24,140 nucleotides of DNA, taken from positions 1 to 24,140 of the forward strand of contig LSSN01001921.1 in assembly GCA_001970855.1 (NCBI GenBank). Direction: 5' to 3'. Both the position numbers and the translations under genes were made by a program. Positions 1 through 23,097 of the stretch are shown in pieces. Source of the stretch: Smittium culicis. Its lineage: Eukaryota > Kickxellomycota > Harpellomycetes > Harpellales > Legeriomycetaceae. The notes beneath the pieces are model-generated. The model did not search any database. It was not told the DNA's origin and saw nothing but the letters and a program-made list of their open reading frames with translations. Every line of letters begins with the position of its first letter. Within the stretch, counting starts at the first letter, position 1.

Positions 1-1442
1 ACAATAGCAATGATCTTGCATTATGTGATAGCAGTACTGGTCTTACAATATGTGAAGACAATAATGATCTTACTATGAGTGGTAATACCATTGGTCTTAC
101 AACAGGCAAAGATATCAGTGAATTACCAGTTAACCTTGGCCCACAAAAGCAAAATGAAAATAAAAACGGATCTAAAAGTTCATTTTTTCAGCGTAAAAAA
201 ACAAATAACCCTACAAATATGATTCAATATACTAACATCAAACCGAAAAGTAATTTAAATACCCCAGAAATCTCTGTAAATAAACCCAATCAAATACAAG
301 CTAAAATTACCATTGAAAATAGCTCAAAAATAACTCGATATAAATCTAGCAACAGATTGGATATATTAAATGATAATAATGGATATTCAAAAGATTTATC
401 TGAAGATAAGTCCAATAAACACAATTTCTCCATCGAATCCAATTCTCAGATTGAGATTACGAATAAAAAGGACGAAAATTGTATCAGTAATATCCAAGAG
501 GCCAATTTAAATAACAAACAAAGCAAGGAGTCAAGTTTTCCTATGGAGATTCGCAAGTCAAAACGGCTTAAAAAGTCTCCTTTAAAAACTCAAAAATTAT
601 GTGATCTTGAATATTTTAGTACTAAATCCAGCCCAAATATCAAAGATGGTGACGCTCTTTCCGATGATTTAAAGTCCAATGTAATAGATTCTCCTAGAGA
701 ACAGAAAAAAAATTCTTCAATCAAACCAATTATTACAGAAAATGCCAATATTGATAGTGGTGTAAATAAATCTATTTCTGAAAATTTAAAAACTAGCAAT
801 ACTTCGAAAACTGATATCAAGGAAAAGAAAGTTTTATGCGCAGCTCATGCTAATGCTAAATCAATTAGTAATGAGGGCTTGATCGAGGTATGTGTAGGCT
901 TGGAAAATATAGATCATGTTTTAAGTGCTAATACCCTTGAGAAAATAAATAATATGGAATCGAATTCAAATCTCGTTGACTCTGAATCAAACAAAAACCT
1001 TGAAAAAAATTCATCTATAATTCAAGTCTTGAATGAAACGCCTAAAAATGTTAAAAAAAACCTCAGTTCCAAAACAGATAGCATCAAAAGCTCCAAAAGA
1101 AGGAAAAGGTATACATCTTTTCGTAAATCAAAACCAAGTAAAAGCCTCAGTGATGTGATAAATAAACTTGATAAGGATCAAAAGAGTGAAACAGGTAAAG
1201 AGGGAATTGCAGATTCCAAAAAAACAACCTCTAAAAAAGAAAATAGTCTAAAATCAACGCCTAAGACTGATAGCAGTAGAAAAGTAGAACTAGTACAATC
1301 AACTAGAAGTGGGAGAAAAGTAAAATCACCTGGTAATTGGTGGCAACGAGGTTTAGAAACACCGAGTAAATCAAAAGGCGATTCCACTGCTAGTATTAAA
1401 TATATATGGGGAGAAGTTGGAGTTGTTCGCAAGAAAGACTGA
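1..1442 (+). CDS. Disordered Ser/Lys/Asn-rich protein, 5' end outside window
   Basis: The frame is already open at base 3, so the protein starts outside the window; the first ATG inside it is at 75 and the TGA stop ends at 1442. From that ATG 455 residues can be read. The chain is dominated by Ser, Lys, Asn and Glu, with no membrane segment or recognisable enzyme domain. It opens with a degenerate 9-residue repeat. Two basic patches resemble one another: RKSKRLKKSP (residues 160-169) and RSGRKVKSPGNWW (411-423). The second recalls the core of the CENP-C/KNL2 motif (basic R-S-x-R stretch, Pro, then aromatic Trp), which in that family contacts centromeric nucleosomes. That likeness is weak and is inference only. 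Many S-P and T-P dipeptides could be kinase sites. A nuclear or chromatin role is plausible from the composition. No introns are evident in this part. Confidence 0.7.
   Translation, partial: NSNDLALCDSSTGLTICEDNNDLTMSGNTIGLTTGKDISELPVNLGPQKQNENKNGSKSSFFQRKKTNNPTNMIQYTNIKPKSNLNTPEISVNKPNQIQAKITIENSSKITRYKSSNRLDILNDNNGYSKDLSEDKSNKHNFSIESNSQIEITNKKDENCISNIQEANLNNKQSKESSFPMEIRKSKRLKKSPLKTQKLCDLEYFSTKSSPNIKDGDALSDDLKSNVIDSPREQKKNSSIKPIITENANIDSGVNKSISENLKTSNTSKTDIKEKKVLCAAHANAKSISNEGLIEVCVGLENIDHVLSANTLEKINNMESNSNLVDSESNKNLEKNSSIIQVLNETPKNVKKNLSSKTDSIKSSKRRKRYTSFRKSKPSKSLSDVINKLDKDQKSETGKEGIADSKKTTSKKENSLKSTPKTDSSRKVELVQSTRSGRKVKSPGNWWQRGLETPSKSKGDSTASIKYIWGEVGVVRKKD
9..116 (+). repeat. Four degenerate 27-bp (9-residue) tandem repeats in the coding frame
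   Basis: Four consecutive 27-base blocks (9-35, 36-62, 63-89, 90-116) encode NDLALCDSS, TGLTICEDN, NDLTMSGNT and IGLTTGKDI. The consensus is x-[DG]-L-T, then a hydrophobic residue or Thr, then Cys/Ser/Gly and mostly polar residues. The array runs to the window edge and probably continues upstream. Confidence 0.6.
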
Positions 1443-2115: not shown

Positions 2116-3261
2116 TTAATCGATTTCGTCTAAAGGGCGGTTAAATCCACCACGCCTGTTCATGTATTGCCTGTACTTTCTCGATTTAACGATTCTGGCA
2201 GAGCCTGGGTGATTTCCAAATACGGGTTTATCCTAAGCAAGTGATGTAAATATATTTTGATATTAGAATAACTATTGATGAAAAAGATATGCTATAAGTG
2301 AATGATAAGCAAAAATAAAAGTTTATATTGTAGAAAAATAGATAGAGCTAAGCATTATTTTACTTTAGTCGAGTCGAAAGAGCCAAAACCCATGAGTTCA
2401 GCCATGCTAGCTTCTTCAGAAACGTTTATGCCTAAAAAATTAATTCAAATAAAAAAATGAAAATTTAGGAAAAAAAGGGAAGGGTTTAATAAAAGGAACT
2501 TGTAGGTAGCGAATAAATGAATATGAAAAATTACCTAGGCTTCTAAATGAGGGAAACAAGAAATGGAAAATGTTAGCTAAAAAGTATTAAAGTATAAATG
2601 GTATGACATAAGGGCGATTACTTTTCTTTTTTTGAATCTCGCGGAGAGCGATCTCTTTTTTCTAAAATTAAAAAACGATAATAATTTGAAATTGGGGTTA
2701 TAAAATATGTTAAAAAAATAATAGTAAAAATAGAAAAGAAAAGTAAATAAAGTATATATTTTTTTTTTTGTTAAATGCAAAGAAATATATATTGAGAAGT
2801 GATACCTCTTCTCTTGACATCTATGAATGATTCATGAGACATAAGTGGATAAGTGGTAAAGAATTAGATTGAAGTTTGTAAAAAAAAAAACTATTATTTA
2901 TTAGATGTAGATTAAAAGTACCAGGGGATCTAGATCTGGAACGGTCATCACGTCTTTTAGCTTTTATAGTTTCTTCAACAGCCTTAGGGTCGCGTTCTTT
3001 TGGACTTCTTTCTCTTCTGCGAGTTCGATCTCTATCTCGTGGATAAGTTTCTCTATAGCTTGAGTCTCTAGTTCTACTGTCTCTTGCGTGCCTGTCCCTA
3101 TCTCTGGATCGAGAGCGTTTCCTGTCTCGGATCGGGGAGCGTGACCTGTCCCGTGTCTTGTATGTTGATTTTGAAGATTTGCGGTCAGAACGCGACATTG
3201 AGCTTGTTTCTCTATCACGTGAATATCGTTTTTCGCTAGAGCTTGAGTCAGAATCTCTCAT
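2116..3261 (-). CDS. SNRNP27: U4/U6.U5 tri-snRNP-associated 27-kDa SR-like protein
   Basis: This is a spliceosomal protein of the U4/U6.U5 tri-snRNP. Proposed exons in transcript order: 3261-2922, 2820-2806 (15 nt, possibly optional), 2661-2622, 2542-2535 (8 nt), 2431-2364, 2232-2116. They total 588 nt and give 195 residues, against about 155 in human. Exon 1 encodes an Arg/Ser/Asp-rich RS-like domain. The last two exons encode the family's diagnostic C-terminal block: [12 protein letters not shown], then [19 protein letters not shown] before the TAA. The human protein has nearly the same ...LMGF.SFDSTK... and ...[19 protein letters not shown]. Phases agree across all junctions and donors begin GTAC, GTAT, GTAA, GTAA and GTAA. 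Leaving out the 15-nt exon also keeps the frame. A run of 12 G on the plus strand (C in the transcript) lies just before the start codon. Identification is firm; exon 2 is the least certain part. Confidence 0.9.
2535..2542 (-). other. 8-nt microexon of SNRNP27 gene
   Basis: Minus-strand reading is ...CATTTAG, then AAGCCTAG, then GTAATT. The preceding exon ends with two bases of a codon and the following exon begins with two, so an insert of 2 mod 3 is required; 8 nt satisfies this. The encoded K-S-L-G makes the segment up to LMGF the same length as the human A-L-E-G-K-T-E-E-E-I-E-M-M-K-LMGF. Confidence 0.75.
2806..2820 (-). other. Probable 15-nt microexon of SNRNP27 gene
   Basis: On the minus strand ATTCATAG precedes a 15-base block that is followed by the donor GTATCA. 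It sits inside what would otherwise be a 260-base intron, enters and leaves in phase 1, and adds five residues (D-V-K-R-R) within the Arg-rich region. Since skipping it keeps the frame, it could be alternatively spliced or a chance pair of sites. Confidence 0.45.
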
Positions 3262-4932
3262 TTTGAATATGGGGGGGGGGGGATAGATGTATGTGTAAAA
3301 GTAATAAGAAAGTGATCAAGAGTATATGCTTTTAATATTCCATTAATCAAAAAATAAACCGCTTAACGCTTTCTTGCCCAACGATTTTTAAGTAATTTAT
3401 ATTTATGATTCGTTTATTGTTTACAAGTGAGTATATTATTTGCTGCTGTTTATCAGAGTACCAATGATGTTAAAGGCATCGAAACTATATTATTTTAATT
3501 AATCTCGGTTGGCTATTTTTACTAGCCCAAAAATAGTCTTCTACCCTTGAAATGGATAAGTTTTGCATTTATTTGGATGAATATTTATTTATTGTAAAAT
3601 TATTCGTTGAATAACTGGGGAATTTTTATTGGATGAAAGCTACAACAGAAGTTCGCAGTAAGAATACGCGATTATGATTCGTGATTCTAACACTAGGGGA
3701 AAGCTTTTTTTTTTATAATTTTACTACAATTTAGACAAATAATTTATCGGTATTAGAATTATAACATTAGCTATAAATTCGTGAGCGTAATAAATAAAAT
3801 CGATACATTTAGAATTATAATCCTGAATAACAATTCGAATATATATGATATTTGGCAGCTTGTTAGGACTTAAGTCATGTTAAAAGGCGATTATACAATA
3901 TAAGGATACGATAATATGGAATAAGCGAGTCTACGAGATACGGGGTAAGGGTTTTTATTTCCAGGTTTGAAGTAAAGGCCGGATTTGACCCAAATCAAAA
4001 AATTTAAAAAGTGGATTTATATATGTATGTCTATACTATCAACATTTACTTATATTTGAATTCAGTTTAAATTTTTAATGTGCATTTAATATAAATACAA
4101 AAAACGGGTACTCATGCGAGGTATAATATTTATCAGATGAGGAATTTAATTGTGAGAATGGATAATAACCTGTAATAATGACTTAACTCTAATAAAATTT
4201 ATATCGCGATACAACAGAGATTATTTTATTCATATAGAGTTTATGGTTAATAGCTATAAAGGGGACGTGTATGTAGTTGAAATTAGTGCCTTTGCGTTGA
4301 GTGGGCTAGGATATGATTATAGGTTTATTATAGGCACCAGTAGTTGATAGTCAAAATCTTACGCATTGGCCACCATAAAGTACAGCAAAAAGCTGTGCAT
4401 CTTATCTTGGAATTACTGATGGAAAATGAATAGACAGAGGGAAGCTATTAAGAGTATACAGCCAATGAGTGGTATTAAAAATGATAAGTGCGTTCCTATA
4501 CAATAAAAAAATAAAAAAAGCGATTGTTTTATGACGAAACTTCGACTATTAAATAATAAAAAGTAACAATTTGGAGGGAAATAGACCTATTAAATAAAAA
4601 AAAAGTAACAAGTGTATTGCTGCCAATTTTCTAGTTTTGTATATAGAAAATATCCGCGTGACTTGAGAATGTATTTCTACGTATAATTTTTGTAACAGCC
4701 AAAAATTTCTTAAAAAAAATATAAAGCAAAATAACCACATCCAGCTCTCCAAAATCAACACAAGATTCTCCTACTCTACATATCCACTTTAGTTTAATAC
4801 CTCCTACTTTTGTTTTAATTCAAGAAATATTCCAAAGTACTGTTTTATATAGACCTTGCTACATACCTTTTCCTTCCTTTTATTTCTATTGTATTTTATA
4901 TTATCCCAACACAAGTATCAAGCCTGCTCAAA
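3262..4932. other. Divergent intergenic region with a possible unresolved exon island
   Basis: About 1.67 kb separate the SNRNP27 start (minus) from the E1-alpha start (plus), so both promoters should lie here. Most of it is low-complexity A/T. Bases about 4260-4500 are less AT-biased. On the minus strand they contain exon-like pieces bounded by acceptors (TTGTATAG near 4495, ATATCCTAG near 4304) with a hydrophobic reading (SFLIPLIGCILLIASLCLFI). On the plus strand a frame reading GHHKVQQKAVHLILELLMEN ends at a TAG. I could not build a consistent gene on either strand or recognise a family. Confidence 0.35.
3271..3282. repeat. Homopolymer run of 12 G
   Basis: Twelve consecutive G on the plus strand, nine bases upstream of the SNRNP27 start codon and hence a C tract in that transcript's 5' leader or promoter. 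It stands out in such AT-rich DNA, and its exact length may be a sequencing estimate. Confidence 0.8.
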
Positions 4933-6895
4933 ATGTTAAAGCTTCTCGCTATATCAAGGAACTCGATTTACAGCACAGCTAGGCTGCAAGTAATTCCAGT
5001 TCAAAATACATAAAACCATATTTCTCATATTTTAACAGAGTGATTTATTTAATATTCTCACAGGTGATTTCTAGCTCTTTGTATTCTACAAAGCCCATTA
5101 ATCCGAAATCCGCCAGACCTGAAGTTACAAACGAGCTCAGCTTCATAAAGCATCTCAAACAAATCCCAATGTATAGCGTTATGGATCAGGACGGAATTAT
5201 CAAGGACAAGAAAAACGCACCTGACCTCCCAAAAGACCTGATTCTGTCTACTTACAAAAATATGCTTACTATTAATTCCATGGACCAAATTTTATATGAA
5301 GCTCAGCGTCAAGGAAGAATAAGTTTCTACATGACAAGCTTCGGCGAAGAAGCCGTTGCTGGCTTAACTCTAGCTTTAAATGACCAAGACAACATTTTTA
5401 GTCAGGTAAGCATAATTTAATCCCCTATTATTCTCTTATTTCGAATTCAATCCCAATAAGTTGCGTTTATACACCTACAATTTCGTCATCAATAACTTCT
5501 TTAATAAAGTACTTATAATTTCAATACTAAAATTAAAAAAATAATAATAAAGTATCGCGAAAGTGTAGTTTTTCTGCAAAGAGGCAGCTCAATCGAAGAG
5601 TTAATGAACCAATGCTTTTCTAACCATTTGGGCCATGGAAAAGGAAGACAAATGCCCATCCACTACGGCAATAAAAAACTCAACCTACACACAATCTCTT
5701 CCCCTCTAGCTACCCAAATACCCCAAGCTGTTGGAACCGCTTATGCCCAGAAAAGAGAAGGTAAAAAGAACTGCACTGTTTGTTTCTTTGGCGAAGGTGC
5801 CGCCTCCGAAGGAGATTTCCACGCCGCTCTAAACATGTCCTCTACACTTGGTGCCCCTGTCATTTTCTACTGGTAAAAACTCATTTTAATCATCTTTACG
5901 TCATTTATATCGCTTCGTATCATTATCATACAAAAATTAATTTTTACATGTATGTATATTAGCCGTAATAACGGATATGCTATCTCTACCCCCTCATCCC
6001 AGCAATTCAAAGGCGACGGCATCAGTAAGAACTAAATTCATTCTGCTTATATATACTCTATTTAAATTTTAATTATCGCCTAATTTTCTTTCTTGCCCTG
6101 TTTTGTTAGTTAGTCGCAGTTATGGTACAGTTACATACACTAATCGCATATAAACGAAATATATTTTTTATGAAACTTTTATACACTTTATGATTTTTTA
6201 TTTTGATTACGTTTAGGCTATGGCATCGAGTCTATTAGAATTGATGGAAACGACATATGGGTTAGTCTCCCCCCCCCCCCCTTATTTTCATTATTCTATT
6301 TTATTATAATCCTTTATAATTTAAATCTCATTAAATTTATATAAATTTCTCTTAAATTAGGCTGTCTACGCCTCAATGAAAAAGGCAAGAGAGTATGCTA
6401 CGACTAACAATAAACCTGTCCTGATAGAAGCTATGACTTACAGGTAAATATGAAAAGTGTGCATTGAAAATTATCTTTTTTATTAAAATCTTATAAACCT
6501 AAATGATCAAGTATATAATTATTCTGCCTAACTTTAATATCCATATTATCAGAGTGAGCCACCACAGCACGTCTGATGATAGCTCGGCCTATAGGTCAAA
6601 AAAAGAGGTAGAGGATTGGTCCAGCAGAGACAACCCGATCTCTAGACTTAGAAAGTACATTGAGCATAACGGATGGTGGACCAGCGCCGACGAGTCTTCA
6701 ACAAAAATTGAAACACGATCCGCTGTTCTTAAAGCTCTAACTGAAGCTGAAATGCTGAAAAAGCCCCAAATCGAAAACTTGTATACTGACGTTTATGACG
6801 AGCTCACGAGTAATCTCAAAGAACAGCTTTTAGAAACTAAAAAATTGATAGACAAATATCCCGATTACTATAAAATTAATGATTTTGAACGCTAA
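4933..6895 (+). CDS. BCKDHA: Branched-chain 2-oxoacid dehydrogenase E1 component, alpha subunit (mitochondrial)
   Basis: This is the thiamine-diphosphate-dependent E1-alpha subunit, which decarboxylates branched 2-oxoacids from Val, Leu and Ile in the mitochondrial matrix, paired with E1-beta. Exons: 4933-4989, 5064-5405, 5553-5872, 5963-6024, 6110-6124, 6217-6260, 6361-6443, 6553-6895. They sum to 1266 nt, giving 421 residues (human about 445) with every phase consistent. The N-terminus (MLKLLAISRNSIYSTARLQ) looks like a mitochondrial presequence. Landmarks are YRES...QRG at the start of exon 3, HGKGRQMPIHYG, ISSPLATQIPQAVGTAYA, the TPP/Mg motif GEGAASEGD (213-221) through C-R-N-N (240-243), and the phosphorylation loop HHSTSDDSSAYR (311-322). 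The usual Gly before HHSTS is Ser310 here. The start is the only ATG giving a presequence in phase with exon 2. AATAAA follows the stop. Confidence 0.95.
6110..6124 (+). other. 15-nt microexon in E1-alpha gene
   Basis: The block TTAGTCGCAGTTATG is preceded by TTTTGTTAG and followed by GTACAG. It enters and leaves in phase 1. Without it the protein reads GDGI-S-YGI; with it GDGI-ISRSYG-YGI, which matches exactly the length of the family's GDGI-AARGPG-YGI, with the central Arg kept. The two flanking introns are 85 and 92 nt. Confidence 0.85.
6269..6281. repeat. Homopolymer run of 13 C just inside an intron
   Basis: Thirteen C begin eight bases after the donor GTTAGT of the sixth E1-alpha intron. 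Such runs are rare in this AT-rich window and prone to length errors. Confidence 0.8.
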
Positions 6896-8404: not shown

Positions 8405-11400
8405 TCATTCCATTTTTGATATTTCTACTGGATAGTCTGAATAAAATTTTATTTGGTAGTCGAAGCTTGAATTGTAGTCCATAGCTATAGGAACTAAAAA
8501 ATACTCGGTTTTACTGCTCTTTAGCAGTATCTTGTTAATAACCACGCCCTATTATAAAAAAAATTATTATTAACAATCATTATACAGTTACGTATAGGAA
8601 TGGATAAAAAAATAGATAAATGTAATCAACAGTTTACCAATAAAAAAAAATTAGTATAAATATTATAAATAATAATAATTTTATCAAGTATGAGTTATAA
8701 TTTACCTGTGGTGAGTTGCTGAAAGGTCCCGATGTTGCAACTAGCTCGTTAGATCTCCCTATAAGATCCTTTAGTTTAAATATTTTAATGCACAAAAAAG
8801 GGTACTCCTTACAGTTAATTCCTGTAACCCTTACAAATACAATAGTAGGATGATTCACTTTAACTTTGAAAACCTCCTGTTTTTGAGTTCCTAAACTTTT
8901 TGGGCTAAAACATAAAAATAACAAGCATGAAAAAAAAAAAACTCATTTAAAATGAAATCAATGTATCTCGATTGATCATAATTTTTTAAAAAAATGAGTA
9001 TGGAAATAAATACACTTACAAATTACTCATGAGTGCCTTAAATAGCATACCCTAAATTAGTATTAATATAACCTTGATGTTATAATTCCAGATAAAATTT
9101 AAATATTTATTATATATATATGTGTAGAATATTAAAAGTATAGGAGTCCTACCTTTCCTTCACGCATTAGCGGGGTTAATTTAAATTCTTGGTTCAAATA
9201 AACAGTTATTTTAAAAGTTCCATAGCGCATAGGCTCATATGTTGACACCAGAATTGTATATTTCGAATCTATTAGATTATTAAAAGTATAATAAACTTAT
9301 TTTTAATATTTCGTATTTTACAAGCAAAAAATAAAAATAAAAGATGATATATACTATATAATATTCATTAACCAAAAGTTTATATAAAGAACTGATTGGT
9401 ATATAAAAAATTATGAATCGAGTAACCTGTTAAATTTTCGAGCTTGACAGAACACAAATTCTTTCTATAATTACCAGAATGACAAACAGTATTTACATTG
9501 GAAGCGCTAAAATATTTAAAAAAAAAAATTCAAGTTAGATATATCATAAAAGAAATTAACTTATAGAATTCAAAAAGCAGAAAAAAAATCAAATAATAAA
9601 GAATAAAATGAAAATAGTTAATAACTAAATACTAAGAGAAAAGAATAACTAATACGCTAAAACTAGATATCCGCCACGGAATATTCTTATTTGAATTGGA
9701 TCGTCTATCTTGGATTCCAGTGAAATGTATCCGTTAATCGGCGCAGTCCCCTTATTTGGATCTCCAGAAATTTCAAGACAAAATTGTGGATTATTTAAAT
9801 AATCTGGATAACTGGAGTTGCCCCCTAAATTAAATAAAATTTAGATTACAGTTCAAGAAAAAAAAATATCATATTGGAATCTAGTAAAATATGTACAAAC
9901 TTGTACGAATTATAAGAATTCGAATAAACGAAATATTTAAATTTTGGTTGGTTCAGTATTTTTTTTTTTTTTTGGCAAGTAATGAAAAAAAAAGGTTTTA
10001 TCATTTACCTGAATTTTCAAAATTCCATCTGCAAGTTAAATCGCTAGTGTAGTTAAATTTAGGAATACTTAACAGATTAAACGGAATGTCTGAATAAGCG
10101 GTTAAGCTAAAGTATAGTGTCTTGGAAGCTTCCTTTTGCTCAACGACAAGCGAAAAGTTATCGTAGTTTTCGCTATCGATTTCTAAACAAACTAATATAT
10201 GTGGGCTATTCACGTACTCTCCCAGCCTGAAAGCTTTACCTACTTCTAAAACTCGAGTTACGCACAAGTTGTCTTCAAGATTGAAATCAGATTTTTCTTG
10301 AGCTTTTGAAATAGCTTTTTTATAGGTTTCTGAATTATTTAAGTACACATGAAGTGCTATATAGTCAGAATTCGGTTCTGTTTGTGTTATGTGTTTACTT
10401 AGTAGAACCCAAACGGTAGATTTTTTTTTTGTTTTGTTAAGTTTTAAATTAAATTGTGGATTGTGATCTAGTACCGATATTTTTTTTTTTTAAAAATTAA
10501 AACAGATTTATTCAAGAGGTTTTATTGTTGATGAGAAAAAGAATTTTTTTGAACTTACATATATTACCCCTAGAAATTACTTGGTCATCTTTAAATAGCC
10601 ATTCACTATTACAAATAAAGTCAAAGTTAATGGGGGAAAAAAAGATTTAGAAACAAAGGAATAAGAAGGCTTAAGAAAAAAAAAATGTATCTAAATAAAT
10701 AATCATTTACAAGTGGAGAATATCGTTAAACTGGAACATTCTTGGATTCCAATTTAAATGGAATGAGTCAAAGTGCGTTAATACAGAATCATAGTCGATC
10801 CAAAATACGCCTGAATAATTAGTAAGCAATTTAATAAAATATGGTTGATAATTCATTATTTAAAATAAAAAAATATATTAAAAAAAATCTAGATAAATTT
10901 CTTTTTACCATTATCCTTCAGTGGATCTTGTTGCGGGTAATATGAAAGCTTTTGAGAAAGATACTCGGTCCATGATTCTGTATCTAGACTACTATACTTT
11001 CCTTTCCAACTGAGCTGACTCCATGGATTTTTAACTTTTAAAAGCCGAAGTGAATCAATTTCACAAATATCTAATATGGCGTATGCATGAGAGGATGCAA
11101 GCCCATAAGTCTCTCTATGATTTTTTCCTATTTCACCAGTAGCTATTGTCATCAAGAGATTTCCTAAACGTATATTGAACAGATATTGATTTTTTTTTTT
11201 GATTATAAGAAAAAATTAAAAGAATAAAGAATATAATTCTATGTACTTATAAAGTTTTTAATATATTAGTTTAAAAAATGTTTTATATCATACCAACTTT
11301 TAAACTTTTAGATATTCGGTTCCAAAAAGATTCTTTGTTAAACATTTCGCTAAAATTTTAAAGAAAAAATTAAAGACATATGAAAATAAATAATTATTTT

Positions 11401-14184
11401 AGTTTTAAAATGGCTATATTATAATTACTTTTCGTTTATGAACACATGTTCAGGGATCCAATTTGTGAGAGCCCTATTTTATAATATTAATCATACATAA
11501 TTTAATAGTGTAATCAATAATGGCTTCGCCTGGTTTTTGAAGAGGCAATATTGATGGATGTAAATATCAATTCGTATGTTGAAAAAAAAAAGTATAAAAG
11601 TAATCTTTACTTTAAGTCGACGCTCGAGTTTCTATAAATATAAAAAATATCAAACTTTGAATATAAACTTAGAAATAAAGAATAAAAAATAAAAAGCAGC
11701 TTTTAGATAAATTCTTACGATCCAGGAAAGTTATACCCGCCCATCACTTTAAGATACTGTATAGGATGAATAATTTTAAATTTGGGTAGGATAATTAGTG
11801 AAAAGTAGGATTAGAATATATCATATTATTTGATAGGTAAAATGAATGATAGAAAAGAAAAAATTTTAAAATGTTTACAGATTTTTCGATTAAAGGGACC
11901 CAGAAAGAGTTATCTGAAGAATAAGTGCACATTAATTTGTTTGACGTAGATAGTGGAACGTAATCATCGATTTCTAGAACCAGGGATAGAATAAAATTAT
12001 AAATAAATGAAATTCATTTTTAGGAAAATATAAGTAAAAAGTTTTTTAGGCTGTAAATTAATTGAAGAAGAACAATTATTTGGGTGGGAGGGGGAGATGT
12101 AATAATAAATACTTACCAACCTATGTAGATATTATAGAAAAATTAAGCGAAAAGAGTTATTAATACAAGTAAAAAGGGTTAATGGTATAAATAAAAGAAA
12201 TTTTTGATACTTTTCTCCAAAGTCCATTTATGAAAAGTCTAGTGACATATCTTCCTGAAGGGTTTAGTACTGGAAGTGCATTTTCATTTTGTGGATAAAG
12301 TAAACTTTGAATAATCTATTTGAAATATCGAGGGGAAGAAATTAATTTTAATTGATTTATCACAAATTGTTAAAAAGTAGAAAATATAATTGAGCAATTT
12401 TGTCAATGAGAAGAAAAATGTTACAGGTATTTTGTATTTAGATTCGTACTCGGCACACACGATCAATGATGCTACAAGAGAGCAATCAGTTACAACATCT
12501 TGGGTAATGTTTTCGCTATAAAGAATAAAATGGCGAATAGATTAATAAAAGTATTTGGCATCATTTAAAGATGAGCTATTGAAAAATGATTAGTCGGCGA
12601 TAATAAAAAATTGAGAAAAAAAAAGAATAGAAAAGGACAAGTTATGTATTTTAGTAGAAACCTATTAGTTAATTCATTTTTCGGAGTATTTTTGTATAAA
12701 GAGCCTAATCGTTTCCATTGTCCAAAGAGCTTAGATTGATCTTCAGATAGCAAAAGTTTTCCATTTTGATCGCTAGCCCAAACCAAACAATAAAAAAATA
12801 TGTTAAAAACATTTGAAAAACAATTAATATAAAGAAGCGGATGAATATAAAAGTGGTACGGTATGTACAATAATGATATGTTAAATGATCAAAAAGGAAA
12901 AGGAAGAGAGGTATATGATTAAAATAGCCTGAGGTATTGAAAAGTTAAATTACGAATAAAGGGAGATTGACGGGGCGATATTGGAATCTTGAGATTCCCA
13001 GGGAATAAGAGCTAAACCATTAACGTACGAAGTGTTTGCAACAACGTTATATTCGGCTTTTGATAGTTTTTTGTTTATAGTAAAATTGTTTAGAAAATGC
13101 TGAATTGGTAGATTTTCTGAGGGAGAACGAGAAGGGGATTTAGTGGCAGTCTTGTAAAACTGATCCTTATTATTACACTCTAATTTATTTTTTTAAATAA
13201 TTTCAAATAAATTATAAAAAATAAAGCGGGATTGATATAGGAGATGATTGTAATATAAAAAATCTTTATAAAGCTAAAAGTTACGTGATGAAGATTTAAT
13301 ATTTTCAGCGGCATTAAGAATTTTCAACATTTCCTTTTTAGCGAGATTGATTCCCTTAATGTTTTTGGACTCTGATATTATATTAGTGTATATTAGTATA
13401 AGTGTTAATAATATAATAAGAGTTAGTATTTAGTAAAAATAAATGGGATATTGTGCTGAAGAAATAATAAGAGATAATGACATTATAAAAGTAAAAATAT
13501 CGAAAGCCTGGAATAATAACAGGTATGATGTAAGCATAGACAAACTGATATAGAGGGTATGGAGGGTTAAATTTACCATAGATATAAATATTTAATAGTT
13601 CGAGGGAGGAAATGTATTTTTGTAGGGCTTTTGATGAAGAGTTAGATAATTCGAGTTCTTTTGCTTCCAAATAAAGTCTATTAGATCTTGTTAGTAGTGG
13701 ATTGTTTGAGAACTTGTCGAGAAGTAGAAATATTTGAGATTTTAAGCGGGAGTACTTTGATATTGTCTTTTTTAAAAAGAAGCGAGTTTTTTGAGAGAAT
13801 TTTCCTATTATTTAATTTTTTTTTAATGTAAGGTAAGAAAAAATTAAATTAAATGATGCTAAATTATAAATAAGAAGAAATATGATTATATTTAAACAAT
13901 GCAATAAATATATAAAGACCATTTATAAAATATTTTACTTTTTAAAGAAGATTCCGCTTCCTAAAATAATAAAGTAAAATTCGAATAATAAAAATGGTTA
14001 GATAATGACTATAGTATTACAACAAAAAAAAATATATTAAGACAGTAAGTAAAAAATGAATTACATTTAGTATAGAGGAGTAAATTTGAATTGAAGTAAT
14101 CAAAGAATTGACATTAGGGTAATTTAAATCAATTGAGGAGGTGGATTTGATTTTGATATAGAGTGATAGTAGGGATATATTCAT
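8405..14184 (-). CDS. palB: PalB/Rim13 (calpain-7-like) cysteine protease, 24 exons
   Basis: Fungal PalB/Rim13 is the ESCRT-III-associated calpain that processes PacC/Rim101 in ambient-pH signalling. Exons in order: 14184-14065, 13960-13939, 13804-13577, 13371-13285, 13179-12954, 12772-12662, 12515-12425, 12315-12211, 12120-12117, 11973-11879, 11756-11719, 11631-11611, 11473-11429, 11349-11294, 11163-10909, 10810-10711, 10605-10559, 10467-10009, 9824-9656, 9506-9427, 9268-9153, 9036-9020, 8904-8706, 8548-8405. Total 2835 nt, 944 residues (human calpain-7 is 813). Two MIT-like regions (about 1-85 and 95-150; LYLEAKELELSNSSSKALQK) precede the protease core. The triad is visible: Cys276 in VTDCSLVASL, His442 in GLASSHAYAILDI, Asn462 in KNPWSQLSWKG. 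LMCTYSSDNSFWVPLIEK and YLKVMGGYNFPGS also fit. The C-terminal half carries beta-rich calpain-III/C2-like domains (HNPQFNL, STVWVLLSKHIT, YTILVSTYEP). The first exon is the least certain, because an acceptor-like CAG lies five bases before its ATG. All phases agree. Confidence 0.9.
9020..9036 (-). other. 17-nt microexon of calpain gene
   Basis: The preceding exon (9268-9153) ends in phase 0 and the next (8904-8706) begins with the third base of a codon, so an exon of 2 mod 3 is needed. GCACTCATGAGTAATTT lies between CTATTTAAG and the perfect donor GTAAGTGT, and it gives E-G-K-A-L-M-S-N-F-P-K-S. Support comes from phase and splice sites, not from a strong family alignment. Confidence 0.65.
11611..11631 (-). 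other. 21-nt microexon of calpain gene
   Basis: The acceptor TATTTATAG precedes a 21-base block and the donor GTAAAG follows. With its neighbours it yields GSNSSVDLKALTNWIPE, matching the GSNSNIDLHALTGWIPE block of human calpain-7. Phase is 2 in and 2 out, so skipping would keep frame but delete seven residues. Confidence 0.88.
12117..12120 (-). other. 4-nt microexon of calpain gene
   Basis: Minus strand reads TCTACATAG | GTTG | GTAAGTATT. The upstream exon (12315-12211) ends in phase 0 with L-W-R-K. The downstream exon (11973-11879) starts with two codon bases and reads (E)-I-D-D-Y-V-P-L. The four bases supply Val plus the first base of Glu, giving R-K-V-E-I-D-D against R-K-V-I-I-D-D in human calpain-7. 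Without it the frame is lost. Confidence 0.85.
13939..13960 (-). other. 22-nt microexon of calpain gene
   Basis: The acceptor TTATTTTAG precedes a 22-base block encoding E-A-E-S-S-L-K plus one base, followed by the donor GTAAAA. It joins the first MIT helices to the next exon in phase (0 in, 1 out), and the residues fall where calpain-7 has K-E-A-A-Q-A-L. Confidence 0.65.
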
Positions 14185-15414
14185 ATCTGTGTCTGTAAAG
14201 GTGTGAAGATGAAATAAATATATAGAATTATGGAAACTTAAGTTTAATGAATTTGAGGCAGATAATTTTCGATGTTTTTTTTATTGACGAAGCACTGTAT
14301 TAAGAGTTTTAAAAAAATCCTGGAGAGTAATTCTGTTTTCTTTGGAAAAATAGTTTCAAATTATCGATCAAGAATTTGATTGAAGGGAATAGGCTGCGCC
14401 TGCAGAGTAAGAAAGAATTTAGTGCTCAACGCTGGGGAGGGGGGAAGAGGGACAGTAATGTGGATATTATACTAGCTGAAGAAGGTTTGGGAATAACAAT
14501 AGCATAACTGTACTTTGGTTTTAAGTTTGAAGAGAGTTATTGTCTTGGATTGATTAAGCGCAAATAATAAAACGTAATCTTTAATTTATCTAATCTATTT
14601 TAATAATTTTTATGGCAATCTATATAATATTAAGAATACTCTTGTTGTGTAGCCGATTGGTTCTTCCAAACATTTTTAATGTTACTTTGAGTACAATTCA
14701 GGCAACATTAAGGCCTTTTCAGTTACAGAAAAAGCTTAGTAAGCTACAGTAATGGAGCTAACTTTTTTTTTTCTTTCTTCAGGAACAGAAACAGAAATAA
14801 AATATAAAAAATAGCCTAGTAAATTACTGGGAAAGTCCATATTCGGTGCTTTCTACTACAAACATTCAAATAATCCGAATATGGTTTGCTAATTAGAAAT
14901 TTATTGGCCAATGATTTCCACTGTTTTGTAAATCTAATTGCACTATTTAACTATATAGCCAATAGATTCGACATGCTCACTACAAAAATTTCTCATTGAA
15001 GTCAGTGTAAGCCAATAGATATAACATTTCCTATTTCTAAAACTCGAAAATTTTGAATAAACTTTTTAATTATACTTGAGCTCAAAAATCCATCCGAAAA
15101 AACTCGCTCAAAAATTCAATATCTCTATAATAAACAAGTAATTATACTCGGTATAACTTATCAGTAAAAATATTATTTACTTCACCCACAAATTCTATAA
15201 TTACAGACTTGGATTCCGTTTCGCTTTAGCTGAGAGTTTTGTCCACGACTCCTTAATAGGCCCCCCTCTTTTTCTCATCACACCAACCTCTACTTTTCTA
15301 CAGCTCTTTTCTTCAAGCCCAATTTCGCTGATCATTCGATCTTGCATATCATTATAGCGAAATAAGTATTACCAACCTTACATCTCCTCCCCTTCGTCTT
15401 CCGCGAATTATACA
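14185..15414. other. Divergent promoter region between calpain and ABHD11-like genes
   Basis: This is 1.23 kb of AT-rich DNA between two divergent start codons. A stretch at about 14330-14570 is richer in G and C and includes a purine tract (14434-14453). I see no complete gene or tRNA. CCAAT-like pentamers cluster in the right half and are listed separately. An upstream non-coding exon of the calpain gene is possible. Confidence 0.5.
14903..15019. promoter_or_regulatory. Cluster of CCAAT-box-like sites
   Basis: There is a palindrome ATTGGCCAAT at 14903-14912. The 10-mer AGCCAATAGA occurs twice, at 14957-14966 and 15010-15019. A further ATTGG lies at 14656. In fungi CCAAT is bound by the HAP/NF-Y complex, which controls many mitochondrial genes, and the neighbouring ABHD11-like product is probably mitochondrial. 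The sites are 400-760 bp from that start codon, and the pentamer is common by chance, so this is tentative. Confidence 0.3.
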
Positions 15415-16548
15415 ATGAATTTGATATCCAAATCAAATAGCACTTCGATCCGCACTTTCACCTCTAAAACTTTACCAGCTTTGCTATCACAATTTAAGGT
15501 GGGCGATAGCTTAGATGTTTCCGGACCAAGCCCGTTGCTAGTACTTCATGGGCTGTTCGGCTCAAAGAAAAATTGGACATCGTTGGCCAAACGACTTAAC
15601 AAAGAGCTAGCACGTCCTATTATTGCCCTTGACTTGCGAAACCATGGCGATTCTCCCCACATTTCCCCTCACGATTACTTTTCAATGAGTAAAGATCTCT
15701 TAGCATATTTAGATAATGAAAGAATTTCCAACCCTGTAGTGATAGGCCATTCAATGTAATTCTCCTTTTTTAATTTTAATTGTCAATTTACTCTACATTT
15801 TCCTTACTATTAGTTTATCGTAGTTTTTTTAAGTACTAACGACTATAAATTTTATCTGGCTTTACTAGGGGCGGAAAGGTCGCAATGACAGCTTCTTTGC
15901 TTGAACCTCAGGCTTTCTCGTCTGTGATAATCGAAGATATATCTCCTCTAGAGTATAACGTTGAGGCAAGTATGTCCAAGTACATAGTTGCTCTGCAAGA
16001 AATAGTTGACTCGAACGTTACTTCTTTGAAGGAAGCTGATCAGATCATGCAAAAGTTTGAATCTGAAATGCCAGTAAGGCAGTTTGTTCTCACAAACTTA
16101 TACTACAACAAAGATGAAAAAGCTTACAGATCAAAAATACCGCTACATATCCTTGGAAACTCTCTCATGAATTTGTCTGATTGGGTTATTGGAAACAATA
16201 GAACGTTCACAAAACCATCTCTACTAATAGGCGGTAGCAGATCTAACTACATAACCCCTGATGGAATCTCAGCTTTTAAAAATTACTACACCAACTCACA
16301 GATAGAGTTTCTCGATGCCGGACACTGGGGTAAAATATCTAAATTAATATATTGCAACTTCGTTTATATTCTTTTTTTTCTTCTATCTATAATTTAATAT
16401 ACATTTACCTTAGTTTAAAGACATATCTCAATTCTGAACGCTTCTTTTTTATTAATAACATATATTTGATTTATAAATAGTTCACTCCGAAAAGCCTGAA
16501 GAGTTTGTTAAGCTGGTGGTTAGCTTCATAGAAAAAAACAACCTTTAA
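15415..16548 (+). CDS. Mitochondrial alpha/beta hydrolase, ABHD11/Imo32-like
   Basis: This is a serine hydrolase of the ABHD11 (yeast Imo32) group; the mammalian member is mitochondrial and helps maintain 2-oxoglutarate dehydrogenase. Exons are 15415-15755, 15869-16329 and 16481-16548, total 870 nt, 289 residues (human 315). Residues 1-24 are rich in Ser, Thr, Arg and Lys and lack acid, like a mitochondrial presequence. Landmarks are LLVLHGLFGSKKNW (oxyanion-hole HGLFGS), IALDLRNHGDSP, the nucleophile elbow GHSMGGK with Ser113 split from its Met-Gly by intron 1, IIEDISP, and DAGHW with the catalytic His266, followed by HSEKPEEFVKLVVSFIEK. Donors are GTAATT and GTAAAA; acceptors are TACTAG and AAATAG. 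It is divergent from the calpain gene and convergent with the HIG1 gene. Confidence 0.92.
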
Positions 16549-16802: not shown

Positions 16803-17159
16803 CTATTCTTCATTGGCAAAGATCGAGCTTTTAGCTTCTTCGGGCTTCAATTTGGCCTTCTCGGCTTCAATAGCCTGGCGCTCAAGTCTGATCCAGTTAA
16901 TATCCTTAACTATAGATACACGGCTTGTGTCCTTTTTCTCCTCGACTGAACTCTTGTAAGCGTAGTAAACAAGTGCAGATACTGTCAATCCTTGGAACAA
17001 TACTCTGAGACGCATACCCCACTGTGAAGTGTTCAAGTTGCGCTTGTAAATGCCGAACGCAGCCATCATAAATGCAGCTGTAGTCAAGCCAAGCCCACCA
17101 AGGACCAACGGCTCTTCCTTCAATTTGCGCGAAATTTTGTTGCTAGCAGTTTCTTTCAT
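16803..17159 (-). CDS. RCF1: HIG1-domain protein, respiratory supercomplex factor 1-like
   Basis: This is a single-exon gene of 118 residues for an inner mitochondrial membrane protein of the Rcf1/HIGD2A type, which associates with cytochrome c oxidase and III-IV supercomplexes. The N-terminal KLKEEPLVLGGLGLTTAAF leads into a first membrane helix (about 18-37). The matrix-side loop carries the HIG1 signature Q-x3-R-x-R-x3-Q exactly (Gln46, Arg50, Arg52, Gln56), and a second helix runs from about 56 to 68. The charged tail (70-118, rich in Glu, Lys and Ala) is probably helical. Yeast Rcf1 is 159 residues and human HIGD2A 106, so the length fits. The start is the only ATG placed before the conserved block. 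AATAAA on the minus strand lies about 30 bases past the stop. Confidence 0.92.
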   Translation of the reverse strand: MKETASNKISRKLKEEPLVLGGLGLTTAAFMMAAFGIYKRNLNTSQWGMRLRVLFQGLTVSALVYYAYKSSVEEKKDTSRVSIVKDINWIRLERQAIEAEKAKLKPEEAKSSIFANEE

Positions 17160-19757
17160 TATTTAAAATCGATTGTGCGTATAATATCTGCTCGATTGCT
17201 TTGGGCGATGTTTAAATATTAATAAAAATGCTTTTGATTTTTTACTACAAGTTGCTTGATATTTTCGTTTATATTAATACAAAATTGTGAATGAACGACT
17301 GATATTTATAGTTCTATAATTGCTAATTGAATATCCTACTGATAATGTGATGTTTTGGCTTCTAATATAATTTGATTAATATACTACTTTAGAAAAGGTA
17401 GGATGATAGATAACACATTTCTAAAATTCTACCTAAAAAAATGCTTTTTTTTATATTTTACCTTAATTTCCCTAAATTATCCTTTTTTTACCAACTCTCC
17501 AATACAAGTGTAACAACATCTATTCGCCAGGACTTTAGTTTGATTCGCAATTAATTGATTAATATTATTATGTGTCCAATAAATTATAGCTATTTGGGAC
17601 TATAGAAATATCGAGATTCTGTTGGCTATAATTTATCGGCGGGTGAGTTTCCAGAAAATATGTAAGCGAAATTTTACATATATTTGTTTACTTCCTCTTG
17701 AATTCGTACCAGTTTTATTGGTGCCCTTTATACTTTTTGCCTCCTTAATCTCGCCAATAGTTTCTCGAAAGAAATCGCTATGTCTGATCAATACTTTTGT
17801 CCAATAGATTACAGCTTTTATTTTAATCTCCATAATCCATTCGCTATAAATAACATTTAAATTTTAATTTAATTTAATAAATAACCCTTAATTTTTAGTC
17901 ATCTCGAAGCATCGGTTGCCTATCAATTCCAGCCAAGCAATAGTCAACAGTTTTGCCAATTTGCCAAGAAATTAATAAAATTATATTAAGTCATCGAGTA
18001 AACAATAATAATTAGACAGTCACGAATCGTAGCTTAGATCATCAAATGGGGTTTAAAGTTGCACGCTTTTCAACTTTGATTCGGAATTACTGATTCAAAT
18101 ACACCAAGAAATTTATGCTTATAATACATTCTGCTAAAATCTGTAATAGTAGAAAAAGTCTCTTTTGAAAGGGGAAAAAAAGTAAACTGACCATTAAATT
18201 AAATTCAATTTAAAAATCAACCCTTTTTCGTCCAACACTCTTTAAAAAGATCAAATTTACTGATTTGTTTATGATTTATAAGTATAATTACTATTTGGTG
18301 TAATTATACAACAAGCCAATATCTATTAAGGCCTCGGAATTAAGTATTATCATTAAAAATGTTTGGTTATATCTTAAAGATCAAAAGCAGTTTACCGCCC
18401 ATGAAAGGATTGAAGTATAGCTTGAAAAAAACGAAACAAAAAATGGATACTACAAATAAAAGTATCCAAAATAAAAAAATCCAATTGGATTAATCCAGTT
18501 ATTTCTAGAATTAAATCCCCCGATAAAAACAAAAAAACGAAAATAGGCATATGCCAGTACCTTTGTTTAACCCTTTCCCGTCCAAAAATATTTGCACGAT
18601 GAAAAAATAAACTCCTCTCGTTCAGTAAAAAAATACATAATATTATTGGCTTTATTATATAATCTACATGTAAATTTCATCCAATAATGTGGAAAATGTT
18701 GAATTATGAAGAAAAAAGTTTACCAGAACTGTGACCAGCCTTTATAAGGCCTAAAATTATAGAAAAATACATTGATAAAAATAATTTCAAAAATTAAAGC
18801 ACACGTTCATTATAAATGTAGTTCAAGCTAAATTTAAATGAGCTTCTTACTATTTTATTATTCCTTTCAAGAACTATAAATAAAATAAATTTAATTAATC
18901 AGCAATTTCGATATGATCAATCATTAACAATACTTTATACTATCGAGAAGGCATTCCAAGATTCATAGAATCTGACCTCTAAAATATATATCACCAAGAG
19001 ATATAAGAATTTCCATTATAAAAAAAAAAGATTTTTTTTTATCAAGAATAAATTATGTGTATATACTAAAATAAAAGCGTAGGCCAATCACATTTATACT
19101 TCACAAGGGTTATATAAACAATTCAATGAATATTTTAACAATTTTATTGCTGTAAAAATCATTTTTTTTATTCTATTTAACACTAGATAGCAATAATTAT
19201 TTTAAGCGGTTATTCATAGTAAAAGATTTATCGAGATATCATTGCACACTAAAATCGTTTAAAATTCTTAAAAGCTAAAAATTCATATAAAGAAGCTAAG
19301 GCATGTGATTATTGCTAATTTATGTTTTTTAGGAATTGTTAAATATTATAAAGCTTCAAGAATTATCCATTTTAATTACTACTTGAGTCTATACTGGTCC
19401 ACAATCACTCACGCTTTATGAAATAATCTCCAGAAAAATAACGCATTTAAAAAAAATTATGTATTGTAGTTTATTAATGTTCACAAAAATAATATATGCT
19501 TTTTTAGGTATTAATAAATAGATATTTATTCTATATTTAATTAAAAAATAGAAATAATATATGAATATCTGGAAATTATATAAAAGGGACAAATAGAATA
19601 TTATAATCCGTATTAATATATTAAACTAACATTTTATTATTGATAAAATTTAAAAGTTAAAACATGAGATACGAAGAAATTAAAACAATAAAAAGCCTTA
19701 GTCTGATCAAGTATAATAAAATTAAAATATCATGTTATCAGTTTTTTAGCCAATGAA

Positions 19758-20962: not shown

Positions 20963-21190
20963 TCAGCTGGCCCCGCTCCGCCGCTCTAGCAGCTCCATAC
21001 CATCTGGGCATTGGTTCAAGGGGGCTGGTAAATCACTTATACTTTGCAGTATAAGTGTTCTGGGCAAGCGGATGCCGTTCAAAAATTTGGCTGATTCCAG
21101 CAAAAAATTTTGATTGGCTGTGCCAGCACGAAGCTGGCTCAAAGATTGTTTAGACTCCCCCCCCCCAAGGAGTTTTCCAACTATCCCCAA
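20963..21190 (-). pseudogene. LINE 3' open segment in another frame after the RT frame
   Basis: The RT frame ends with ...STKPGWG and TAG at 21183-21181. An overlapping frame stays open for 75 codons to 20963. It has the same GC-rich composition as the RT, reading KQSLSQLRAGTANQNF and SAKFLNGIRLPRTLILQSIS, and contains a run of 10 C/G (21157-21166). It may be the lost C-terminus of the RT protein displaced by an indel, or simply the 3' untranslated region. I cannot tell which from one copy. Confidence 0.45.
21157..21166. repeat. Homopolymer run of 10 C in LINE 3' part
   Basis: Ten C on plus (G in the element's sense strand), about 15 bases beyond the RT stop codon. A length change here would alter which frame is read. 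Confidence 0.8.
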
Positions 21191-23037
21191 CCGGGCTTCG
21201 TTGAAATTAGAAAGTAAAATTTTTCGTCAGAGCGGATCGGCGTCGGTATGAACCGGCAGATCGTCGTTATTCGGTGATTTCGCCACCGGCTGCAGCTCAG
21301 AAGTGTGTGGTCGACCGTCTCAGGCACACACAAGTTGCAGCAGGGGCAAAAATTTTTGAATTTTTGGTCGACGATTTTCATGTTCGACAGGCGCTGGGCA
21401 GTCCGAAATGTGCCCATACGCATTTTCCCAATGTTCTGAAGGCCTAGCTTCAGGTCCGGATACATAACTTGAAGGTCAACCCAGTTGCCTTTTTTGCTGA
21501 TTTTCCGATCCACCGGTGGACGGTGGATGACAGACCGGTTATTTCGTCGTTTCCGGTCGACTATCGTGATGATAGTCTGACCGTTTGAATCTTGAGTGCA
21601 AAATTTCTTGATCCACCGGGCGCTCCCGGTCACCCAGGTGGTCATCCGTGCCTTCATCGGTGCCTTGATGAGGTCGGCGATCCATGTTTTTGATGTTGGC
21701 CACTTATGATATGCACGCTCACGGGCTGTGCTGGTGCGCATGAACACTGAGGTTATGCCCAGTTCATCCCTGATGCGCTCCATGGCCGCTGATTTTCCGA
21801 CATTGGTAACCATTTGGATCGCCTTGTCGATTTCTGACTGTATGGGCTTGCATCTGGCTTCGCTCATGCCAAATGTCTCCCCACCGTAACATCCTATCAG
21901 CATCAGCACCGAATTGACGAACTTTATTTTTAGTGCTGTGAGCACATCAGACCGCCTCAGGAAGCTGTAGGCAGCGTATACAGCCTTCATGACCTTATTC
22001 TTATTGTTTTTGATAGTCCCAGATACATCCCACTTGCTATTCATAATATAGCCCAAGTAGGTGTACTGGTCGGTGGAGTCGACTTTTTGGCCCTGCAGGG
22101 TCATATCAGTAGTCAACTCCCCGCTTATAGTCATTATCCCGCACTTGGAGGCATTCACAGCCATTTCCCAAGTGTCCGACCATTCGGCTATGGTATCCAG
22201 TGCGGCTTGTAAATCGGCTGATGATTCGGCCAATAGCACGGCATCAACAGCGAACAGTAGTCTGGGTATGTGTGAGGTGAGCCTAGGCACCTGCACACCT
22301 CGTACGCCCTTAAATATATCGTTGATGTAGAAATCGAAGAGTATCGACGAGGCTGTGCACCCTTGCCGCACTCCACAGAGGTATTTGGTGGAGTTGGAAA
22401 TGAAGTTTCCAACTCTAACTGCGATTTTCGGGGCATCATACATACCCTTGATCATATTGAGGAGTTTGCCCCCAATGCCCACTGATCGCAGTTTATGCAG
22501 TAGGGCCATGTGGGGGACCCGGTCGTAGGCCTTGCTATAGTCGATATAACACAGCCATGTTTCCTTGTTCTGGATTTTTCGTCGGCGTACTATTTCGTAT
22601 AGAGTGGTCGCTTGGCCCGCACACTCCTCGAAATTCCGAAATCCAGCTTGCTCTTTTACTAATATTCTATATTTCGCATCGATTTTGCTGAGTTTGGTGG
22701 CCACAATTTTGGCCACCAGTTTCGCCAGTGTTGGGATCAGTGATATCCCTTGGTAGTTATCAGGGTCCTTCAGGTCCCCTTTTTTAGGCACCGGGACAAC
22801 AACTGATGTTTCTAGGCACTGGGGTATATTTCCAGTATCATACATAATATTGATGATTTTATTTATTAATTTAGCTAGGCTTGATGTTGGTGATTGCTCG
22901 GCCATCACCAGTTTCCATACCTCAGATGGCACACCATCAGCTCCCGAAGCTTTGTTATTTGGCGTATCTGCAAGTGCACCTGTGATTTCAGACCATAGTA
23001 TGGAGTTATCGCACCCTGGGTAATATATAGTGTCCAT
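21181..23037 (-). CDS. LINE reverse transcriptase with CCHC zinc motif (probably inactive)
   Basis: A 618-codon uninterrupted frame that copies LINE RNA at a nicked target in functional elements. Residues 24-45 (DTPNNKASGADGVP) are the usual entry to the RT domain. RT motifs follow: VVVPVPKKGDLKDPDNYQGI (79-98), EQAGF (129-133), motif A YIDYSKAYDRV with Asp166, motif B GVRQGCTASSILF (222-234), and motif C LLFAVDAVLLAES. Motif C should read F-A-D-D; here the first Asp is Val264 (codon GTT at 22248-22246, GAT expected), which should abolish catalysis. Tyr95 is followed by Gln where Arg is usual. C-terminally there is a zf-RVT-like cluster C-x2-C-x6-H-x4-C (567-582). The frame continues upstream of the ATG to a TGA at 23097-23095 (reading GRSAEKWENLIS), so the ATG is not necessarily the original start. 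Confidence 0.88.
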   Translation of the reverse strand: MDTIYYPGCDNSILWSEITGALADTPNNKASGADGVPSEVWKLVMAEQSPTSSLAKLINKIINIMYDTGNIPQCLETSVVVPVPKKGDLKDPDNYQGISLIPTLAKLVAKIVATKLSKIDAKYRILVKEQAGFRNFEECAGQATTLYEIVRRRKIQNKETWLCYIDYSKAYDRVPHMALLHKLRSVGIGGKLLNMIKGMYDAPKIAVRVGNFISNSTKYLCGVRQGCTASSILFDFYINDIFKGVRGVQVPRLTSHIPRLLFAVDAVLLAESSADLQAALDTIAEWSDTWEMAVNASKCGIMTISGELTTDMTLQGQKVDSTDQYTYLGYIMNSKWDVSGTIKNNKNKVMKAVYAAYSFLRRSDVLTALKIKFVNSVLMLIGCYGGETFGMSEARCKPIQSEIDKAIQMVTNVGKSAAMERIRDELGITSVFMRTSTARERAYHKWPTSKTWIADLIKAPMKARMTTWVTGSARWIKKFCTQDSNGQTIITIVDRKRRNNRSVIHRPPVDRKISKKGNWVDLQVMYPDLKLGLQNIGKMRMGTFRTAQRLSNMKIVDQKFKNFCPCCNLCVPETVDHTLLSCSRWRNHRITTICRFIPTPIRSDEKFYFLISTKPGWG

Positions 23038-23097
23038 ACTAATAAGATTTTCCCACTTTTCAGCTGATCGTCCATTTTCTAGTATTGTCTTTGTTCA

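Follow-up and report, generated by a model that had tools for sequence, protein, structure and literature searches.

A probable 4-nucleotide coding exon in the PalB/calpain-7 gene of Smittium culicis and a cluster of gene-model errors at its codon across other fungi

Very small exons in described systems

The accessible text of the report on human MPC1 describes exon 2 of that gene as a 4-bp coding microexon that is constitutive in the cell lines tested (PMC9929638). It resembles the exon considered here, the four bases GTTG in a PalB/calpain-7 gene of the fungus Smittium culicis, in being exactly 4 nt long, coding, and critical to the reading frame (PMC9929638). Smaller units are the conserved 1-nt microexons of plant APC11 and VPS55, which the available part of their description bases on both RNA-seq and RT-PCR (PMC8831610). 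There, a plant microexon is held to be too small to accommodate both complexes, so that its two flanking introns compete (PMC8831610). Like GTTG, the APC11 and VPS55 exons are tiny and frame-critical, are absent from reference annotations, and, as GTTG also appears to be, are old and liable to be lost together with their introns, as in monocot APC11 (PMC8831610). Among fungi, Trichoderma Xlr2 has a 20-nt glucose-regulated microexon that, like GTTG, is missing from the predicted gene model; in the portion of that work available, its authors term fungal microexon research limited (PMC11121469).

The closest comparison at the level of the gene itself is with PalB/calpain-7 of other fungi, which belongs to the same protease family and carries the same K-V-x-[IV]-D-D motif. 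No 4-nt exon is annotated among the matches listed, which are protein records and as such carry no exons. Our search, outside of which most subscription journals lie, returned no literature on a microexon in PalB/calpain-7 or on microexons conserved among early-diverging fungi. To our knowledge, the fungi concerned are not known for a dedicated microexon programme.

The PalB/calpain-7 gene and its four-base exon

The window, by which we mean the whole 24,140-nt stretch of DNA analysed, carries the PalB/calpain-7 gene on its minus strand (Table 1). We modelled the gene by hand and scored donors and acceptors leave-one-out against a matrix built on the 21 other introns. The model comprises 24 exons encoding 951 aa in an open frame with a single terminal stop, and its 23 introns, every one of them GT-AG, measure 79-205 nt (median 122). 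Pfam recognizes the calpain catalytic core (Peptidase_C2; E 1.5e-37, 129.7 bits) and domain III (Calpain_III; E 6.8e-7, 30 bits), both above the cut-off. An MIT domain (PF04212) has no Pfam match in the 951-aa protein at E 0.001, and Pfam likewise gives none for the homologue from Furculomyces boomerangus, the top match among the best 120 of 459 (a 714-aa query, aligned over 99% of its length at 50% identity). The least certain part of the model is the start and the first two exons, which rest on by-eye N-terminal resemblance to the Furculomyces protein. No paralogue, second haplotype, or second copy of the gene was found in the assembly. An apparent stop at 9016 turned out to be a later intron's donor.

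Table 1. Features of the PalB/calpain-7 gene and of the rest of the window
Feature	Position	Strand	Length (nt)	Basis or description
PalB/calpain-7 coding span, whole	8405..14184	-		frame, Pfam domains, Furculomyces homologue
Upstream exon	12211..12315	-	105	ends ...NGLWRK on a codon boundary; model and homologues
Intron A	12121..12210	-	90	phase 0, GTATCA...CATAG; gene model
Putative coding microexon GTTG	12117..12120	-	4	Val codon and first base of Glu codon; sole canonical frame-restoring solution with the conserved motif
Intron B	11974..12116	-	143	phase 1, GTAAGT...TTCTAG; gene model
Downstream exon	11879..11973	-	95	opens AA/ATC GAT GAT, one base short of a codon; model
Other very small exons, same gene	13960-13939; 11756-11719; 11631-11611; 11473-11429; 9051-9020	-	22; 38; 21; 45; 32	
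Reverse transcriptase frame	21184-23094	-		long frame, RVT_1 E 2.3e-29; probably retroelement
Dehydrogenase E1 component exons	5508-6892	+		E1_dh E 3.4e-30 and 1.2e-14
Alpha/beta hydrolase exon	15358-15756	+		E 2.8e-12
HIG_1_N protein	16806-17162	-		E 6.7e-13
Ser/Lys-rich long open frame	3-1442	+		no Pfam match
Arg/Ser-rich long open frame	2824-3315	-		no Pfam match

Scans of the 24,140-nt window for tRNAs and Rfam families gave no matches. Several further exons of the PalB/calpain-7 gene are also very small (Table 1), and in homologue models from other fungi indel rates are raised (0.08-0.15) at the junctions corresponding to the 38-, 21-, and 45-nt exons. The Furculomyces model (P0001) has a 15-residue gap opposite the window's ALTNWIPEHVFINEN, which adjoins small exons; perhaps another small exon was missed there.

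The two exons that flank GTTG are separated by 237 nt, microexon included. The preliminary description had held that their phases are incompatible (0 versus 1), and the model bears this out: joined directly, they read GLWRKKSMITFHYLRQTN and then a stop, after 13 codons. GTTG connects the phase-0 end to the phase-1 start; as had likewise been proposed, its four bases give Val and the first base of Glu, which restores the conserved K-V-x-I-D-D and leaves the 951-codon frame open. The result is an internal coding exon far below the usual size, lying between CATAG and GTAAGT, and the 17-mer TACATAG-GTTG-GTAAGT that contains it on the minus strand occurs once in the 56.3-Mb assembly.

The Val thus supplied belongs to the calpain-core motif W-R-K-V-x-I-D-D. 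Among the best 120 of 459 homologues, its column holds V in 97, I in 18, F in one, and a gap in four, so that V or I is present in 115 of the 120. Furculomyces reads WRRVDIDDYVP and a Smittium homologue VEIDDYVP. The W-x-x-V-x-I-D-D spacing recurs in calpain-5 of solved structure; the search of solved structures, which at E values up to 1 matched 22 distinct sequences (mainly animal calpains, with FAP42 and two evidently unrelated matches), served only for seeing this spacing.

We enumerated solutions with splice sites reaching as far as 45 nt into each flanking exon, introns no shorter than 40 nt, and no more than one middle exon, which could be 60 nt long at most; three GT-AG models were open and in frame. 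The GTTG model was the best of them by the family profile (171.1 versus 145.5 and 118.0), in agreement with the original placement of a microexon at these four bases as required for the frame; the best canonical alternative has an 8-nt GTTGGTAA exon and a lengthened upstream exon. No one-intron GT-AG or GC-AG model in this enumeration was open and in frame, and the admission of GC donors added no open in-frame model. Of the 256 possible 4-mers at this place, 8 score as high as GTTG against the family profile. Dinucleotide shuffles of the introns, with the ends kept, produced an open AG-N4-GT in 387 of 20000 cases and one with a Val or Ile codon in 55, and in none of the 20000 an AG-N4-GT with a GTAAGT or GTATGT donor and a YAG acceptor; of 3000 shuffles, 5 gave some model whose family score equalled or exceeded that of the GTTG model. 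Recursive splicing, or a stwintron, was discarded on account of phase, as with nothing retained between the introns the frame breaks. We regard it as very probable that 12120-12117 is a real 4-nt coding exon of PalB/calpain-7 that supplies the conserved Val.

The microexon is surrounded by three weak splice sites and one strong donor. The strong one is the donor of intron B, directly after the microexon, which had earlier been called perfect; it scores 9.2 bits and is exceeded in 2 of the 21 other introns. The acceptor before the microexon had also been called strong; at 3.4 bits it is in fact below average (median 6.6), with 3 of the 21 others lower. The donor of intron A (3.8 bits) surpasses those of 5 of the 21, and the acceptor of intron B (-2.8 bits) surpasses one. 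Intron A has branch-like YTRAY sites (TTAAT) 43 and 26 nt before its end; in intron B, the tail that was scanned has none, as is also the case in 3 of the 21 other introns.

Gene models of other fungi that break at this codon

Homologues were collected as the best 120 each of 459, 2270, and 1135 hits, which gave 206 distinct proteins, related to each other, that were grouped by name into 99 from fungi outside Kickxellales, 32 Kickxellalean, and 75 others. Unnamed records were grouped by guess (P0039, P0046, P0123, P0156, and P0183 as fungi, P0011 as Kickxellales, and the other unnamed ones with the rest); these six guess-grouped models are intact at the microexon site. Three fungal proteins without the site (P0142, P0170, P0177) were left out, leaving 96 from fungi outside Kickxellales, and the plain substitutions in P0076 (TLDD) and P0200 (ILDD) were not scored as broken. 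Among these listed homologues, models broken exactly at the microexon site number 27 of 96 in fungi outside Kickxellales, from 19 genera by name, against none of the 32 Kickxellalean models and none of the 75 others, the last group, which is non-fungal, having no gap at the Val site. This excess has a Fisher p of 1.4e-4 against the Kickxellalean group and 2.6e-8 against the others, values that ignore relatedness and differences between annotation pipelines. The 69 intact fungal models are compatible with correct annotation as well as with absence of the microexon.

Per-position indel rates in the fungal group, with Mucor lusitanicus P0122 as the reference for 293 core positions, place the Val position at the top (21 of 95 fungal models, versus a mean over positions of 3.7%). 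Dimargaris P0071 stood with the non-fungal rows in this comparison, and with the fungi in the count of broken models. Pooled over the window's exon junctions, with those of the microexon included, the rate is 0.069 (31 positions) versus 0.033 elsewhere (262 positions; p 2e-4), and it is highest, at 0.23, for the microexon junctions. A 4-nt exon at this codon in other fungi would explain such a hotspot.

The form that the errors take in individual models is informative about the phases involved. Codons of the other fungi were here worked back from protein letters because calpain-7 DNA from a second species was not found: searches of the DNA of relatives gave 95 viral-contig and 33 genome-contig pattern matches, none confirmed as calpain-7. 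Read-through of a phase-1 donor after V or I (codon GGT) would leave V/I-G, which fits Apophysomyces P0134 (RKI-GKIYCEISTYVICIYADPNA-VVDD, the end of which would also suit a GCAG acceptor), P0133 (RKI-GT), Bifiguratus P0143 (RKV-GK), and Synchytrium P0022 (RKI-GM). A phase-1 exon start ahead of VDD, spliced to a cryptic donor within a Gly codon, fits four models in which VVDD follows a segment that ends in Gly in another protein: Umbelopsis P0038 (HYN; HYNG in P0027), Cunninghamella P0049 (IYN; VYNG in P0130) and P0135 (QDKD; QDKNG in P0049), and Funneliformis P0189 (QKRF; QKRFG in P0172 and P0187). A phase-0 intron directly after RK/RR fits four further models. In Dimargaris P0071, RR is joined to FPVS, while P0089 of the same species has RRIAIDDQFPVS, i.e., RRI; the exon end right after RR implies an intron before the Ile codon, as an Ile codon cannot supply GT. 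Umbelopsis P0175 starts MQIIVDD, as if ATGCAG closed an intron ahead of the Ile codon. Umbelopsis P0053 and Circinella P0118 join RK to YMKLMGG and so skip the counterpart of the window's microexon and next exon (4 + 95 = 99 nt), although a Val codon could there serve as a cryptic donor.

For about half of the 27, the broken model is ambiguous or has no explanation. Phase-0 donor read-through is possible in Ambispora P0166 and Zopfochytrium P0188 (both RKVC), Cetraspora P0178 (RKVS), and Fennellomyces P0139 (RKVN), the first three of which fit phase-1 read-through equally well. Not explained are Podila P0050, Gigaspora P0167, Borealophlyctis P0179, Jimgerdemannia P0186, Smittium P0030, Umbelopsis ramanniana P0037, Halteromyces P0040, Spinellus P0138, Ambispora P0173, and Funneliformis P0172 and P0187.

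These residual cases, and the reliance on protein letters for the codons of other species, leave some room for a microexon that is real but recent and private to its lineage, with the broken models elsewhere due to just one ordinary intron, to assemblies of poor quality, or to errors of unrelated origin; that Furculomyces, the closest homologue among the matches listed, is intact at the site also points this way. However, one phase-compatible intron should not yield the top error rate of 293 core positions. The Umbelopsis models combined require that an intron precede the Ile codon (P0175) and that the exon behind it start in phase 1 (P0038), which together imply the same 4-nt exon, and the Dimargaris pair is likewise at odds with a private origin. 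We therefore consider a lineage-restricted microexon rather unlikely.

In terms of a shared microexon, Dimargaris supports the first intron, and Apophysomyces and Bifiguratus support the second. Errors that imply the same phases in Umbelopsis, Dimargaris, and Apophysomyces suggest that the microexon is probably older than the split between Zoopagomycota and Mucoromycota, and we think it likely that the same exon is present in both. A common origin before that split, with loss in Kickxellales, is probably the simplest reading. Its presence in chytrids is less likely than in these two phyla, the models concerned being suggestive only. For the full scenario, in which a frame-critical 4-nt exon predates the divergence of Zoopagomycota, Mucoromycota, and perhaps Chytridiomycota, was retained thereafter except for a loss in Kickxellales, and has been a systematic source of wrong models, the balance of the evidence is modestly favorable.

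Recognition of the exon and its place among known systems

Four nucleotides are too few for the 3'-site and 5'-site complexes together, so that the two introns are most likely removed sequentially. The preliminary description had also invoked very short introns, and this did not hold: 90 and 143 nt are ordinary for a gene with a median of 122 nt. It is nonetheless plausible that each flanking intron is recognized as a unit, by intron definition. The strong GTAAGT donor would favor intron B first, and its removal would fuse GTTG to the 95-nt exon, leaving intron A as an ordinary intron. Both introns would be spliced as drawn, and inclusion should be constitutive because skipping would destroy the catalytic core.

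The same frame dependence could instead serve a regulated switch, in which skipping of the exon turns the protease off under some condition. Its length is not a multiple of three, its skipping would run into the early stop, the donor of intron A is weaker than 16 of the 21 others, and the available text on Trichoderma Xlr2 offers a 20-nt precedent for such a switch (PMC11121469). Against this stands the constitutive inclusion reported for the 4-bp exon of human MPC1 in the cell lines covered by the accessible text (PMC9929638), and we judge regulation improbable. A further alternative to a constitutively included microexon is that an assembly or sequencing error of 1-2 bases at an exon edge, e.g., in the AAAA run, masks a one-intron structure in which GTTG is coincidental. 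One added base does restore the frame (WRK-K/Q/E-IDD). However, hypothetical repairs by one added base or two lost bases score 156.5 and 157.6 versus 171.1 for GTTG because the conserved Val position is missing from them, chance would seldom produce a matching GTTG next to a near-best donor, and the hotspot in other fungi stays unexplained; such an error is very improbable. Finally, a longer middle exon or non-canonical sites are hardly credible: allowing AT donors and AC acceptors opens 1082 models, none above the canonical score and the next best (ATAG) close to it at 170.4, but ATAG requires a GT...AC intron where all 21 other introns are GT-AG, and the best canonical alternative scores 145.5.

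If deep conservation is true, GTTG would rank with the smallest known exons and with those conserved most deeply. Fungi across phyla would then faithfully splice an exon below the usual U1 footprint, and those that kept it and those that lost it would provide a natural series for testing how tiny exons are recognized. It would also account for a mistake that gene annotation makes repeatedly in the core of a pH-signalling protease. More generally, places where errors cluster in protein databases can reveal microexons that were missed.

The differences from the described systems are as clear as the similarities. In the accessible account of MPC1, an animal gene, the exon has long flanking introns and exon-definition elements, whereas the putative GTTG exon belongs to a fungus and has flanking introns of 90 and 143 nt (PMC9929638). 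The plant exons of APC11 and VPS55 are 1 nt long, belong to land plants, and are demonstrated on RNA in the available part of their report; GTTG, in contrast, has 4 nt, is fungal, and is deduced from the DNA (PMC8831610). The Xlr2 microexon, at 20 nt, is regulated and, as far as the available text describes it, conserved within Trichoderma, whereas the 4-nt exon is probably constitutive and possibly shared across phyla (PMC11121469). Thus, constitutive 4-nt exons and conserved 1-nt exons were already known, and the GTTG exon of PalB/calpain-7 would add to them a new and perhaps unusually old example.
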